Of a DNA stretch of 64,000 nt, positions 8,596 to 57,126 are shown one piece after another. Under the pieces are notes generated by a model, which worked only from the letters and a program-made list of their open reading frames with translations, was not told the origin of the DNA and searched no databases. The position numbers were made by a program, and so were the translations under genes. Each line of letters opens with the position of its first letter. Within the stretch, counting starts at the first letter, position 1. The DNA lies in the NCBI GenBank assembly GCA_016866775.1, contig VGLJ01000007.1, positions 1 through 64,000 of the forward strand, written 5' to 3'. This DNA is from Candidatus Rokuibacteriota bacterium. GTDB lineage: Bacteria; Methylomirabilota; Methylomirabilia; Rokubacteriales; CSP1-6.

Positions 8596-8664
8596 GCGGC
8601 GGCTTCGCCGCCGCATTCGAATCTTGGGGGGAGTTTCGAGGGGGGCCGTCGAGGCCCCCCTCGA
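8596..8664. terminator. Double hairpin between convergent genes (copy A of an intergenic hairpin family)
   Basis: First a perfect 8-bp stem (8596-8603 with 8607-8614, loop TTC), then a perfect 12-bp stem (8636-8647 with 8653-8664, loop GTCGA) rich in G/C. The pair sits between a plus-strand gene end (8565) and a minus-strand gene end (8668), so it probably serves as a bidirectional terminator. A similar arrangement recurs near 12.1 kb, 23.2 kb and 60.1 kb. Confidence 0.6.
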
Positions 8665-15405: not shown

Positions 15406-16056
15406 ATGACCCTCAAAGAGACGCTCGACGGGATGAGAGCCGCCAGCAAGGCGCGCATTCCCCCGGAGACCCAGGCCGTCATGCAGCGAGCCATCGAGGA
15501 CGTTCGGGCCTCGGGCATCCTGGACCGCGTGGTCAAGACCGGGCAACGCGCGCCGGACTTCACGCTGCCGAACACCGAGGGGCACGAGACCAGCCTCTCG
15601 ACTCTTCTGGGCAAGGGCCCCGTGGTTCTGAGCTTCTTTCGAGGTCGCTGGTGACCGTACTGCAATGCAGAGCTGGCAGCTCTGCAGGCCGCGCTTCCGG
15701 CGATCGCCGCGACCGGCGCGAGTCTCGTGGTCATCTCGCCGCAGGTTCAACGTAGTCGACGCGAGACCGGCAACGAGCCCGCGGTGACGTTCGAGGTGCT
15801 GCGTGACCGCGGCAACGAAGTCGCGCGGCGCCACGGCATCGTCCACGAGCTCCCCGACGACCTCCGGGAGACCTACGGCAAGTTCAACATCGATCTCCCC
15901 GCGATCAACGGCGACGGCACCTGGACCCTGCCCATGCCCGCCCGCTTCGTGATCGATCGCGCGGGCATCGTACGTTCGGTGGACGCCGACCCGGACTACA
16001 CGCAGCGGCCCGAGCCCGACGCCACCGTGGCGGTGCTCCGCGGCCTGGGCGCATAG
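15406..16056 (+). CDS. Peroxiredoxin-like (AhpC/TSA) selenoprotein, Sec83
   Basis: 216 residues if the TGA at 15652-15654 is read as selenocysteine. Frame and family match continue through it: FFRGRW-U-PYCNAELAALQ, where relatives have FYRGxWCPYCNxEL. Sec83 replaces the catalytic cysteine and C86 gives a U-x-x-C redox pair. The upstream part (RAPDFTLPNTEG..SLSTLLGKGPVVLSF) and downstream part (LVVISPQ, YGKFNIDLP, ARFVIDRAGIVRS) form a complete thioredoxin fold. GGAGGAA precedes the ATG. A hairpin lies directly after the UGA. It likely reduces peroxides. It converges with the AhpD-like selenoprotein gene. Confidence 0.9.
15666..15686 (+). promoter_or_regulatory. Bacterial SECIS-like hairpin of the peroxiredoxin-like gene
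   Basis: A perfect 9-bp stem (TGCAGAGCT with AGCTCTGCA) carries a GGC loop. Exactly 20 bases lie between the UGA and the first loop base, and the loop opens with G. Both fit the bacterial SECIS rule (apical loop about 16-37 nt after UGA, G in the first two loop positions) for SelB-dependent insertion. The stem also encodes part of the conserved helix after UxxC. Confidence 0.75.
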
Positions 16057-16117: not shown

Positions 16118-16918
16118 TCACTGCGGAGGACGGATGTCCGACTCGATCTGCATGCCCTCGGAGAGCGTGTTCAAGGTCGTGTAGTGGTCGACGACGCCGA
16201 GCACCTCCAGAAGGTCCTGATCGGTATCGCCGGCGTGGCGCAGGATCTCCGCGTGGTGGTCGATCATGTACCGGCCGCGCCCGGCCATCGACACGCCGAG
16301 CGCGGTGCGCCGCTTGTCACGCGCGGAAAGGGCACCGTCGCTCATCAACGCGCGGTCCTTCCGCCAGGTCGCTTCGAGGTAGTGCGGGTTGCGCGCCAGG
16401 ATCCGCCAGAGCACCGGGACGTCGGCCACGCCGCTCGCGGTGCGCCACCATGCCGCGATCTCGTCGAGGAGCACGCGCACGGTGCCGTCGCTCTCTTTGA
16501 CCTCGATCGGCGCGATCAACGGCGAGCCTCGCGTGTCGAGGCCGAGCGCACCCGCCGTCGTCGCCATGGCTTTCGCGTGCTCCGTGACGCCCATCACCTC
16601 CGTCACGCCCGTTTCGTCGACACCGAGCCGCATCACGGCGGCGACGTGGGAGTCGATTCAGTAGTGGCACGCGTTCGCGACCGAGACGGCCGTGGCGATC
16701 AGCTCGCGCTGAAGCGGTGTGAACCGGCCACGCTGCATCAGCGCGCGCGAGCGGTTCCAGTTGGACTCGAGCAGGGCCGGCAGGTGCCCCATGCATCGCC
16801 AGATGTTCGACACGCTGGTGGCGCCGAAGACGCGCTGCTCGCGCGCGAGGATGGCGTCGAAGATCTCGCGCGTCTTCCCGGCCGCGCGGTCGGGATCGGG
16901 CAGTGGGATCGTCGTCAC
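16118..16918 (-). CDS. AhpD/carboxymuconolactone-decarboxylase-like selenoprotein, Sec87
   Basis: 266 residues if the TGA at 16660-16658 is selenocysteine. The active motif reads ANACHY-U-IDSH, so the family C-x-x-C-x3-H becomes C84-x-x-U87-x3-H91. The frame is unbroken to a stop at 16118. The protein is a tandem of two AhpD-like halves; the second keeps the helix pattern (RTALGVSMAGRGRYMIDHHAEILR) but has lost both catalytic cysteines. AhpD proteins supply electrons to peroxiredoxins, which fits the neighbour. Start ATG at 16918, divergent from the OsmC-like selenoprotein gene. Confidence 0.88.
16627..16642 (-). promoter_or_regulatory. SECIS-like hairpin of the AhpD-like gene
   Basis: GCCGC pairs with GCGGC around a six-base loop CGTGAT. 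A CAC/GTG pair outside a small internal loop extends the stem. The first loop base follows the UGA by 20 bases and the second loop base is G. This is the weakest of the three hairpins on stem length, but its position matches the other two exactly. Confidence 0.5.
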
Positions 16919-17032: not shown

Positions 17033-17542
17033 ATGGCGGATCAGGTGCCGGAAGGATTGAATCCCTCGGTCGAGAGCCGGCAGATCACGTTCGAGGCCGA
17101 TGTGAGCTCCGTGACGCCGTTCCTGAAGCTTGCCACCGCGCACAGGAACGGCGGCGGTCACATGACGTTCGCCTGCGACGAGGGCCCGAATCTCGGCGGC
17201 CTCGGCTCGGCGCCGACCCCGCTCATGTACTTCAGCGCCGCGCTCGCGTTCTGACTGATGACCCAGGTGTCCCGGTACGGGCACATGCTGAAGGTCGACG
17301 TGACGCGTATGACGATGCACGTGACGGCGCGGTTCAGGGTCGAAGGCTCGGTGCTCAAGGACACGATCCAGGGGGAGATGCTTGGGGCCGAGACGACGCT
17401 GGAGCTGGAGTCTCAGGCCGAGCCGGAGCGTGTCGCACGGGTGATCCGCAACGCCGAGCGCGGGTGCTTCGTCATGCAAGCGCTGCTCCGCCCGGTCGCG
17501 GTCACGACGCGGTCGCTGCTCAACGGCCGTCCGCTGTCCTGA
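17033..17542 (+). CDS. OsmC-like selenoprotein, Sec74
   Basis: 169 residues if the TGA at 17252-17254 is selenocysteine. The motif is PTPLMYFSAALAF-U-LMTQVSRY, where OsmC/Ohr relatives have FSAALAxCLMT with the peroxidatic cysteine. The resolving cysteine survives as C145 in NAERGCFVMQALLRP. The N-terminal part (FEADVSSVT...HMTFACDEGPNLGGLGSAPTP) and C-terminal part (MTMHVTARFRVEGSVL) complete the fold. Start ATG at 17033 with GGAAAGGA upstream. OsmC family proteins reduce organic hydroperoxides, usually with lipoyl or thiol partners. The stop lies 6 bases before a convergent helicase gene. Confidence 0.88.
17267..17284 (+). promoter_or_regulatory. SECIS-like hairpin with bulged T of the OsmC-like gene
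   Basis: GTG pairs with CAC and CCCG pairs with CGGG, enclosing a GTA loop. A single T at 17270 bulges from the 5' side, as does the functionally important bulged U of the E. coli fdhF SECIS. The first loop base comes 20 bases after the UGA and is a G. Confidence 0.7.
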
Positions 17543-23136: not shown

Positions 23137-23245
23137 GCGGCGGCTGTGCCGCCGCAATCCGGCCCTGGGGGAGGCAGACAAAGAGCGAGCCGCATGGCTC
23201 GCTCTTTGTCTGGCGTCGGAAGGGGGGCGCGAAGCCCCCCTCCGA
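23137..23245. terminator. Three stacked hairpins (copy B of the intergenic hairpin family)
   Basis: Three stems in a row: 8-bp GCGGCGGC/GCCGCCGC (23137-23155, loop TGT); a perfect 17-bp stem with a GCAT loop (23175-23212); and a G6/C6 stem with one bulged A (23216-23245). They fill the gap between two convergent gene ends and should stop transcription from both sides, chiefly the long minus-strand operon's upstream-most neighbour and the FecR-like gene. Confidence 0.65.
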
Positions 23246-47558: not shown

Positions 47559-50500
47559 GTGGGCGACCTGAGCCACTCCCTGCTCCTGCGGCAGATCAAG
47601 CGCGTGTTCGGCGAGCGGCCGATCCCGCCGGAGCTGGCGCCGCTGCTCGACGCCGTCGACGAGGCGTATCGCCAGTTCGACACCGACCGCGCGCTGCTCG
47701 AGCGCTCGCTGGACCTGAGCTCGCAGGAGCTGCTGCAGGCCAACGCCGACATGAGCGCGCTCTTCCGCGCGTTCCCCGACCAGTTCTACCGGCTCGACGC
47801 GCGCGGCATCGTGCGCGACTACCGCGGCGGCAGCATGACGCGCGAGAGCGGCGAGCGCGTGCTCGGGCGGCCGTTCCAGGAGCTCCTGCCCGAGGCGAGC
47901 GTGCCGGAGTACGAGATGACCCGCGCGCGCGTGCGCCTGCAGCGCCGCAGCGCGAGCTTCGAGTACGCGGCGTCCGAGGGCGGCGGCGAGGCGGCGTTCG
48001 AGGCGCGCGTGGTGCCGCTGCTCGAGGACCAGGCCGTGGTCATCGTCCGCGCGATCACCGGGCGGCGGCGCGCCGAGGCGAGCGCGGCGGCGCTCGCGCG
48101 GGTCGGCGGCGAGATCGCCGCCACGCTCGACCTCGACCGCGCGATGCAGCTCATCGTCGACAGCCTCCACGCGCTCTTCCGCGTCCGCCGCGCGGTGCTC
48201 TACCGCGTCGATGCGGCCTCGGGCGCGCTCGTGTGTCGCGCCGCCGCGGGTCGCGACGACGGCATCGCGTGGGTGGGCTCGGTGCTGGGCCCCGGCGAGG
48301 GCGTGGCCGGCCGCGCGGTGGCGGGCGCGCGCATCGCGTGGTCCGCCAACATCACCACGGATCCGGACCTGCCGATGCCGGCGTGGGCGAAGGCGAACGC
48401 GTACACGGAAGGCTATCGCAGCGTGCTGGGCGTGCCGCTCATCAGCCGCGACACCGTGATCGGCGCGCTCGTCGTCGGCGACGAGGCCGGCCGCTTCTAC
48501 ACGGAGGAGGAAAAGCGCCTGCTGCTCGGCTTCGCGAACCAGGCCGCGATCGCCGTCGAGAACGCGCGGCTGTTCGAGGACAGCGAGCGGCGGCGCCGCG
48601 CGGCGGAAGGCGTCGCCAGCGTCGGACGCCTCGTCTCCGAGTCGCTCGAGCCCGCGGACGTCGGGCAGCGCATCGTCCGCGCCCTCACCACGATGTTCGG
48701 AGCCCAGATGTCCGTCCTCTACCTCGTCGAGGAGGTCTCCGAGGCCCTGGTGTTGTTCGCGGGCTGGGGGCCCGCGGTCGACTGGAACCAGCGCCTCCGG
48801 CGCGGCAACGCGCTCGTCGGCCGCGCCATCGCCGAGGGCCGTCCCATCTCGTCGGTGAACATCCTCGAAGACGAGCGCGTGAGCCTGACGCCGGAAGCGC
48901 GGGCGCGCATCGAGCGCTCGGAATACCAGTCGGTGCTCGCCGTGCCGCTCACCGCGCACGACCGGATCCTGGGCGCGCTCGCGGTGGGCGACCATGCGGG
49001 GCGCGTCTTCTCGCCGGAGGACATGGCGCTCGTGCAGAGCTTCGCCGACCAGGCGGCGCTCGCGCTCGCGAACGCCGAGCTGCACGGCGAGACGCGCGCG
49101 CCTGCACCAGATGCGCCGGCTCGCGGAGCTGAGCCAGCTCGTCAGGTCGTCGCTCGACCGGCGGCTCGTGCTCGACTTCGTCACCGAAGCGGCCCTCGAC
49201 CTGCTGCACGTCGATCTCGCGCGCGTCTGGCTCGTGGAAGGCAGTGACGGCCACCTGCGCCGCGCATCGAGCCGTGCCCGGGGCGACATGCCGGCGGACG
49301 GTGGCGTGGACGTGCTGCCGCCGGGCGCGGGGCTCGCGGGCTGGGTCGTGAAGGAGCGGAAGAGCCGCGCCGCCCCGGACCTGCTCACCGATCCGCTGAT
49401 CTTCCAGAAGGAGTGGTTCATGGCGGCGGGGATCGTGTCGCACCTCGCGGTCCCGCTGGTGGGCGGCGACGCCGCGATCGGCGCGCTCGTCGTGTCCACG
49501 CGGGTCCGGCGCGACTTCGATCGCGAGGAGATCGATCTGCTCGAGATCTTCGCGGCCAAGGCGGCCATCGCGCTCAGCAACGCGCGGCTCTATCGCGAAG
49601 CGCGCGAGGCCTACGAGCAGCTCGCGCGCACGCAGGACCTGCTGACGCAGGCGCAGAAGATGGACGCCGTCGGCCGGCTGGCGGGCGGCATCGCTCACGA
49701 CTTCAACAACCTCCTCACCGTGATCATCGGCCGGATCGACGCGCTCCTCGAAGACCTGTCCGACGACGACCCGCGCCGCAGCGACCTCGACCTGATCGCC
49801 GGCGCCGCGGAGCGCGCGTCCGCGCTCACGCGGCAGCTCCTCGCGTTCAGCCGCAAGCAGGCGCTCACGCCGACCGTCGTCGACGTCAACGCGATCGTCG
49901 ACGAGGTCGCCTCGCTCCTGCGCCGCCTCCTCGGCGAGGACATCGAGTTCGCGACCGCGCTCGTGCCCGGCGCGGCGCGCGTGCGCGTCGACCGCGGCCA
50001 GATGGAGCAGGTCATCGTGAACCTCGCGGCCAACGCGCGCGACGCGATGCCGTCGGGCGGACGGCTGACGATCAGCACGGATCGCGTCGACGTCACCGAC
50101 ACGCCGCCGCCGGGCGTGGCCGCGCCGCCGGGCGCATACGTGCTGCTGGCGGTCACCGACAGCGGCCACGGGATGGACGCCGAGACGCGCCGCCGCGTGT
50201 TCGACCCGTTCTTCACCACGAAGGAAGTCGGACGCGGCACCGGCCTCGGCCTCGCGACGGTGTACGGCATCGTCAAGCAGCACGACGGGCACGTCGCCGT
50301 CGACAGCAGCCCGGGCGCGGGCGCGACGTTCCGGATCTACCTGCCGCGCGCGGACGCCGAGGTCGCGGCGCCCGCCGCGCCGGCGGCGCCGCGGCCGACG
50401 GGCTCGGAGACCATCCTGCTGGTCGAGGACGAGCAGGAGGTGCGGCGGCTCGCGCCCCAGGCGCTCGAGGGCGCCGGCTACCGCGTCATCGAGGCGGCGT

Positions 50501-55619: not shown

Positions 55620-56419
55620 CGAGCCGATCCACCCAGGGGTCGCCCGCCCCGGCCGTTGCCGGCCGGGGCGGGACGGCCGCGTCCGACACCGTCCTCCGCA
55701 TCGAAGGCCTCTCCGTGCGGTTCGGAGGCCTCGCCGCGCTCAACAACGTGTCGATGACGGTGCCGCGCGGCCAGATCCGCGCGATCATCGGCCCGAACGG
55801 CGCGGGCAAGTCGACCTTCTTCAACTGCGTCACCGGCGTGCTGCGCCCGACGGGCGGGCGCATTCTGTTCGAGGGCGACGACATCACGGGGCTGCCGCCC
55901 CACCGGATCTCGCAGAAGGCGATCGCGCGCTCGTACCAGATCACCAACATCCTGCCCGGCGCCACCGTGCTCGAAAATGTCCGGGTCGCCGTGCAGTCGC
56001 GCCATCACTCGTGGGCCCTGTTCCGCCACCACCGCGCCTACCAGGACGTCATCGCCGAGGCGCGGACGGTCCTCGCCTCCGTCGGCCTGGCCGAGAAGGA
56101 AGAGGAGCTCGCCGCCAACCTCTCGCACGGCGAGCAGCGCAACCTCGAGATCGGCATCGCGCTCGGCACGGAGCCGCGGCTCCTGTGCCTCGACGAGCCG
56201 ACGGCCGGCATGAGCGTGAGCGAGACTCACGCAACCGTGGAGCTGATCCGGCGCATCGCCGCGAACCTCACCATCCTCATCGTCGAGCACGACATGGAGG
56301 TGGTGATGGGGCTCGCGCAGGTGATCACCGTGCTCCACTACGGCGAGGTCCTGGCGGAGGGCGCGCCGGCCGAGATCCAGGCCAACGCGCGCGTGCAGGA
56401 GGTTTACCTCAAGACCTGA
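55616..56419 (+). CDS. livG: ABC transporter ATP-binding protein, LivG type
   Basis: 267 residues. Walker A is GPNGAGKST; the signature is LSHGEQRNLEIGIAL (variant of LSGGQ); Walker B is LLCLDEPTAGMS; H-loop is VEHDM. VRFGGLAALNNVSMTV is the LivG-like lead. It starts at a GTG overlapping the previous stop by 4 bases. The first ~25 residues are an unconserved linker. It would pair with LivF as the two ATPases of the importer. Confidence 0.9.
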   Translation: MTSRSTQGSPAPAVAGRGGTAASDTVLRIEGLSVRFGGLAALNNVSMTVPRGQIRAIIGPNGAGKSTFFNCVTGVLRPTGGRILFEGDDITGLPPHRISQKAIARSYQITNILPGATVLENVRVAVQSRHHSWALFRHHRAYQDVIAEARTVLASVGLAEKEEELAANLSHGEQRNLEIGIALGTEPRLLCLDEPTAGMSVSETHATVELIRRIAANLTILIVEHDMEVVMGLAQVITVLHYGEVLAEGAPAEIQANARVQEVYLKT

Positions 56420-57126
56420 TGCTGACCCTGGAAGGCGTGCACACCTTCTACGCGAAGTCCCACATCCTGCACGGGGTGTCGCTCGAGGTGCGTCCGGGCG
56501 AGGTCGTCGGGCTGCTCGGCCGCAACGGCGTCGGCAAGTCGACGACGCTGAAGACGATCATGGGCCTCGTCACGCCGTCGGAAGGCACGATCACGTTCGA
56601 GGGCAAGGCGATCGCGGGCGTTCCGCCGTACCGCCTCGCGCGCATGGGCATCGGCTACGTGCCGGAGGATCGCCGGATCTTCAAGCTCCTCTCCGTGCTC
56701 GAGAACCTCCGGACCGGTCTCGACCGCCCCGAGGTCACGGCGGCGCGGCGCGAGGCGCTGCTCGACAAGATCTACGCGAGCTTCCCGATCCTGAGGGAGC
56801 GCCGCGACCAGGCGGGCGGCACCCTCTCGGGCGGCGAGCAGCAGATGCTTGCGATCGCGCGGGCGATGATGCTGGAGCCGCGCATCATCCTGCTCGACGA
56901 GCCCACGGAAGGGCTCATGCCGCGCATGGTCGAGCAGATCCGTCACATCATCGAGGTCCTGCACCGGGAGAAGGTCGCCATCCTGCTCGTGGAGCAGAAC
57001 GTCCCGCTCACGCTCGGCGTGTCCGACCGCGTCTACATCATGGAGAAAGGCGTGGTCCGCCACCACGCGCCGGCCGCGAACCTCCGCGCCGACGCCACGG
57101 TCATCCACCAATACCTGGGGGTCTGA
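56419..57126 (+). CDS. livF: ABC transporter ATP-binding protein, LivF type
   Basis: 235 residues. LTLEGVHTFYAKSHILHGVSLEV, Walker A GRNGVGKST, signature LSGGEQQMLAIARAM, Walker B IILLDEPTEGL and the H-loop replaced by Q in VEQNV, a normal LivF feature. The ATG shares one base with the LivG stop (TGATG). A much longer upstream open frame is not coding. Confidence 0.92.
   Translation: MLTLEGVHTFYAKSHILHGVSLEVRPGEVVGLLGRNGVGKSTTLKTIMGLVTPSEGTITFEGKAIAGVPPYRLARMGIGYVPEDRRIFKLLSVLENLRTGLDRPEVTAARREALLDKIYASFPILRERRDQAGGTLSGGEQQMLAIARAMMLEPRIILLDEPTEGLMPRMVEQIRHIIEVLHREKVAILLVEQNVPLTLGVSDRVYIMEKGVVRHHAPAANLRADATVIHQYLGV

Follow-up and report, generated by a model that had tools for sequence, protein, structure and literature searches.

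A gene for a peroxiredoxin-like (Prx-like) protein with an in-frame UGA, followed closely by a hairpin, lies on the plus strand of the window, by which we mean the whole 64-kb stretch of DNA analysed. Next to it are two further genes with a UGA, coding for AhpD/CMD-like and OsmC-like proteins, which an earlier, preliminary description of this DNA had missed. The features are the following:

15406-16056, plus strand: Prx-like (AhpC/TSA) gene, predicted selenoprotein, ATG to TAG, 216 amino acids, Sec83 and Cys86 (UxxC)
15652-15654, plus strand: UGA codon, proposed to be read as selenocysteine (residue 83); conserved as TGA in 45 Sec relatives and aligned with TGC/TGT in the 17 Cys relatives
15666-15686, plus strand: putative bacterial SECIS stem-loop, arms 15666-15674 and 15678-15686, loop GGC 15675-15677; based on folding, conservation, a synonymous null and covariation
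16118-16918, minus strand: AhpD/CMD-like gene, predicted selenoprotein, GTG start assumed, NACHY-U-IDSH (CxxU), PF02627 with 80.6 bits
16658-16660, minus strand: putative Sec codon (UGA) of the AhpD/CMD-like gene, TGA in homologues
16627-16642, minus strand: candidate SECIS of the AhpD/CMD-like gene, 5-bp stem GCCGC/GCGGC, loop CGUGAU, from alignment only
17033-17542, plus strand: OsmC-like gene, predicted selenoprotein, SAALAF-U-LMTQ, NF041052
17252-17254, plus strand: putative Sec codon (UGA) of the OsmC-like gene, TGA in phylum homologues spanning the site
17267-17284, plus strand: candidate SECIS of the OsmC-like gene, GUG-U-CCC / GGUAC / GGG-CAC, from alignment only

The reading frame of the Prx-like gene translates as MTLKETLDGM...VVLSFFRGRW-U-PYCNAELAALQ...LGA and ends with TAG; the TGA at 15652-15654 is in frame and occupies the first Cys position of WCPYC. 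The preliminary description had proposed a UxxC motif in a peroxiredoxin-like protein, where FFRGRW-U-PYC differs from the family's WCPYC at the UGA. Both statements are borne out: the protein, with Sec83 and Cys86 in the same frame, matches the AhpC/TSA domain PF00578 with 97.8 bits (gathering cut-off 26), and the UGA aligns with a Cys codon in the 17 Cys relatives. The scores for two NCBIfam models, SelL_rel_redox (SelL-related) and PrxU, stay below the curated cut-offs (31.2 versus 120 bits and 29.8 versus 270 bits, respectively).

The hairpin, UGCAGAGCU-GGC-AGCUCUGCA, comprises nine Watson-Crick pairs. Its stem starts 14 nt from the first base of the UGA; 20 nt separate the UGA from the loop, which opens with GG. 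The published bacterial SECIS (bSECIS) consensus specifies an apical loop of 3-9 nt with G in the first two positions, an upper stem of 4-16 bp, a UGA distance of 16-37 nt and an MFE of -7.5 kcal/mol or lower (PMC13188914). Within these limits lie the 9 bp and 3 nt found here, the 7 bp and 5 nt of the conserved core, the GG, the 20-nt spacing and the energy of -16.1 kcal/mol obtained by folding the 39 nt from the UGA. The corresponding z-score of -1.6, with 15 of 200 shuffled sequences equally stable, was dismissed as evidence because it is too weak. Moreover, the window contains about a dozen sites where a perfect stem of at least 9 bp encloses a loop of 3-8 nt, and 6 of its 1396 TGA trinucleotides have a perfect stem of at least 9 bp at SECIS distance. 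The hairpin alone is weak evidence, and it is conservation that decides.

Conservation in selenocysteine and cysteine relatives

Within the phylum 95 genomes were searched, and 28 of them supplied 29 usable sequences. All phylum matches that span the site carry one TGA there (one match of a paralogous family has a TAG besides), and stop-free phylum matches cover the C-terminal part only. Among 385 alphaproteobacterial genomes both TGA and Cys forms are present; 16 TGA and 13 Cys sequences were usable, and four other relatives bring the Cys total to 17. The viral contigs searched contained no relatives of the Prx-like gene. A mechanical ORF caller terminates the gene at 15654, as expected if the UGA were a genuine stop and the locus a pseudogene, wrongly sequenced or a pair of independent ORFs. 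However, the TGA recurs at the same site in 28 phylum genomes and 16 alphaproteobacterial genes, the protein is conserved on either side of it and synonymous constraint is found just downstream, which leaves next to no probability for a stop. What standard annotation splits in two is a conserved antioxidant gene.

The SECIS comparison was anchored on the UGA and gap-free, with core pairs formed by +15 to +21 and +27 to +33 (15667-15673 with 15679-15685), and for the null each protein was recoded synonymously by the codon usage of its own group. The preliminary description had proposed to compare the synonymous conservation of the hairpin in Sec and Cys relatives, and the outcome is that predicted for a SECIS: the 7-bp core is complete in 25 of 29 phylum Sec sequences and in 8 of 16 alphaproteobacterial ones, half of which hence lack the full core stem, versus 1 of 17 Cys sequences, so that the Cys relatives do not keep the hairpin equally well. 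Synonymous recoding produced a complete core in 0.7%, 0.4% and 0.3% of cases, respectively. The nine perfect pairs emphasized earlier are real in this sequence but not general, since 9 bp are limited to a few sequences and the conserved portion of the stem measures 7-8 bp. Similarly, the notion that the hairpin is unusual for coding sequence does not apply to its energy, which is unremarkable, but does apply to the core.

Single codons and pairs reveal the same pattern. The Ala codon at +27, in the 3' arm, is GCT in 29/29 phylum and 15/16 alphaproteobacterial Sec genes and in none of the 17 Cys relatives (GCG in 11, GCC in 5, GCA in 1); elsewhere in the phylum's genes GCT makes up 21 of 574 Ala codons (3.7%). 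All 45 Sec genes (29/29 and 16/16) have CTG as their loop codon, and the A-U pair +19/+29 is intact in 44 of these and broken in 17/17 Cys sequences. Covariation is limited, because both arms are constrained by the protein: a two-sided change is seen at one pair, where U-A replaces C-G in 8 distinct sequences. The loops of the alphaproteobacterial elements begin with GG or GU, which the published consensus permits (PMC13188914). A covariance model of the element, which includes the window's own sequence, scores 63.5 bits at the hairpin site and 20 at the next genomic site.

These data also bear on the view that the UGA is read as selenocysteine while the hairpin is a mere by-product of coding for AELxALQ and not a signal. 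Its mildly unusual folding energy and the 9-bp stems found about a dozen times in the window would fit such a view. Yet, the full core arises in less than 1% of synonymous recodings, the Cys relatives also encode xELxALQ without the stem, and the rare GCT codon in the stem is invariant in the phylum (29/29); we therefore consider a by-product very improbable.

In the phylogenetic tree the Sec sequences group, and a five-member Cys clade without the stem sits among them (support 80/90 for the containing group). Since this stemless clade is placed among Sec sequences, the tree suggests a joint loss of Sec and SECIS there, with the direction of the Sec/Cys change dependent on rooting at the midpoint. 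The locus thereby offers a clean natural comparison, where a SECIS is synonymously constrained in Sec relatives from two phyla and absent from Cys relatives, including a nested clade. On the sequence evidence, UGA 15652-15654 is almost certainly a selenocysteine codon, and the hairpin 15666-15686 its bacterial SECIS.

Decoding machinery and predicted function

The genome encodes a complete Sec decoding set, consisting of SelA, SelB, SelD and tRNA-Sec. The genes selB (C43:30823-32703) and selA (C43:32741-34093) form one cluster with the tRNA-Sec gene (anticodon UCA, C43:34974-35067), and the winged-helix (SECIS-binding) domains of SelB are present. The selD gene (L198, G000:C31:24695-25639) contains one in-frame TGA and probably codes for a selenoprotein itself. 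Of the phylum's 95 genomes 83 carry selA, as do 50 of the 53 good ones. A large selenoproteome has been reported for the Methylomirabilota (PMC13188914). No SelA match at E <= 1e-60 was obtained in G053, G061, G077 and G088, which belong to the 28 genomes that have the UGA gene; all four are draft genomes, although G088 is rated 100% complete, and we tentatively attribute the missing matches to draft assembly.

The presence of tRNA-Sec (UCA), SelA, SelB and SelD argues against decoding of the UGA as Trp, as Cys by a suppressor, or through genome-wide reassignment, for none of which support was found. Furthermore, the homologous residue is always Cys and never Trp, and UGA is still a stop, since orthologous Prx-like genes in relatives often terminate with TGA; such decoding is extremely unlikely. 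In the selenocysteine reading, SelB carrying Sec-tRNA-Sec would bind the hairpin (15666-15686, with GG at the start of its loop, 20 nt downstream of the codon), and the ribosome would then insert selenocysteine at UGA 15652-15654. We infer that selenium is truly incorporated at residue 83.

The predicted structure of the Prx-like protein (mean pLDDT 95.5) comprises a helical N-terminal extension and, from residue 40, a peroxiredoxin fold, for which AhpE is the closest match (Z 19.4, 2.0 A over 148 residues). Sec83 immediately precedes a helix formed by residues 84-102, in agreement with the preliminary description, according to which the hairpin region also encodes a helix. Sec/Cys83 and Cys86 are invariant in 59 aligned proteins. 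The canonical peroxiredoxin pattern PxxxTxxC/U is absent, as Sec83 itself occupies the Thr/Ser place three residues before the peroxidatic residue; in a sequence alignment with Aeropyrum PrxQ (2cx3), Sec83 lies opposite the Ser of SPVC, and Cys86 opposite its Cys.

The product may be a peroxiredoxin-fold thiol:disulfide oxidoreductase or peroxidase with the redox pair Sec83-Pro-Tyr-Cys86, an activity predicted from sequence and model. Sec83 is the likelier attacking residue: the nucleophile of UxxC proteins is normally Sec, and in thioredoxin-like CxxC proteins such as ResA the first residue attacks. Cys86 would then resolve Sec83 as a selenenylsulfide, to be reduced by a thioredoxin-type partner. 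Reversed roles, with Cys86 peroxidatic and Sec83 resolving, would agree with the PrxQ alignment, which pairs the motif's second Cys with the cysteine of SPVC and puts Sec83 where the peroxiredoxin TxxC motif has Thr/Ser. However, ResA, whose first CxxC residue attacks, was also matched in the same comparison, and we hold the reversed assignment to be rather doubtful.

Neighbouring genes and other sites

The AhpD/CMD-like and OsmC-like neighbours are predicted selenoprotein genes with one UGA each at the position of a redox Cys. AhpD/CMD-like homologues from three other genomes all have TGA, and the candidate SECIS stretch GCCGCCGTGATGCGGC is identical in L194-L196. The OsmC-like protein scores 165.4 bits with NCBIfam NF041052, OsmC-related (seleno)protein (cut-off 95), and about 19 homologues share its candidate SECIS, L183 (GUGUCCAGAUAUGGACAC) and L192 (GUGUCCCGGUAUGGACAC) showing paired changes. 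The OsmC-like homologue L192 (G064:C338) contains two in-frame TGA instead of one.

The window was screened for further single-TGA readthrough frames with coding-like GC3. The site at 57124 looks like an ordinary gene end, because it is flanked by ABC ATPase and permease domains, and the frame beyond 10793 lacks a Pfam match; both were rejected. A tRNA-Ala(GGC) of 99 nt called by ARAGORN at 47599-47697 (plus strand) is probably a false positive, since the sequence looks protein-coding. Perfect hairpins of 12-17 bp, longer than that behind the UGA, are located at 23175-23212, 55643-55672 and 8636-8664. Elsewhere in the same genome there are further selenoprotein candidates: an FYRGYW-U-PFC paralogue with its own conserved hairpin (L162, G000:C25, around 27096), a DsbA-like protein with DYQ-U-PYC (L154, G000:C77:1437-1465, minus strand) and a TlpA-like protein with ATW-U-PYC (L156, G000:C49:2074-2118).

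In seven relatives retrieved, the OsmC-like gene lies directly downstream of the Prx-like gene on the same strand, and in six of these the tandem overlaps or nearly touches. The two genes are 9 nt apart in L082, L088 and L089 and 49 nt apart in L087. In L083, and likewise in L091 and L092, they overlap, the start codon of the OsmC-like gene reaching into the stop codon of the Prx-like gene. The window has the AhpD-like gene between the Prx-like and OsmC-like genes, on the opposite strand, so that its three genes form a cluster, not one operon. One ORF (L075 / L105, G053:C351) joins the first, N-terminal two thirds of a Prx-like protein to a C-terminal OsmC-like part, either because sequence between tandem genes was deleted or because of misassembly.

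The Prx-like protein might act together with its OsmC-like and AhpD-like neighbours against peroxides or organic hydroperoxides. Tentatively, the UxxC Prx-like, CxxU AhpD/CMD-like and OsmC-like proteins could constitute a single module for selenium-based defence against hydroperoxides, analogous to the AhpC-AhpD relay but built on selenium; in some members of the phylum, translation of the Prx-like and OsmC-like genes would be coupled within one operon. The cluster provides a concrete partner set for an enzymatic test. One instance of Prx-like 1 adjoining AhpD-like 2 is on record from the GOS survey (PMC2398784); in the open-licence literature searched we found no description of the three-gene cluster or of the Prx-like/OsmC-like tandem.

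Relation to known selenoproteins and SECIS elements

Like known bSECIS elements, e.g., that of E. coli fdhF, the hairpin is a stem-loop right behind the UGA whose loop starts with G residues; it differs in its own sequence and in an upper stem without a bulge. The protein shares the peroxiredoxin fold with canonical Sec peroxiredoxins (TxxU), but has Sec at the Thr/Ser place of TxxC and Cys86 at the peroxidatic position.

Reviews list UxxC Prx-like, CxxU AhpD/CMD-like and OsmC-like selenoproteins, the first as Prx-like thiol:disulfide oxidoreductases with PF00578 and UxxC/UxxU (PMC13188914, PMC9312934), and the GOS survey contains a "Prx-like 1" (PMC2398784). The Prx-like gene joins this published UxxC family, with which it has in common the AhpC/TSA domain, the UxxC motif and a UGA followed by a bacterial SECIS. 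The subfamily described here appears to be set apart by an N-terminal helical extension of about 40 residues together with the motif FxRGxW-UPYC. Finally, the neighbours correspond to known kinds as well, namely NF041052 OsmC-related (seleno)proteins and AhpD/CMD-like CxxU selenoproteins.
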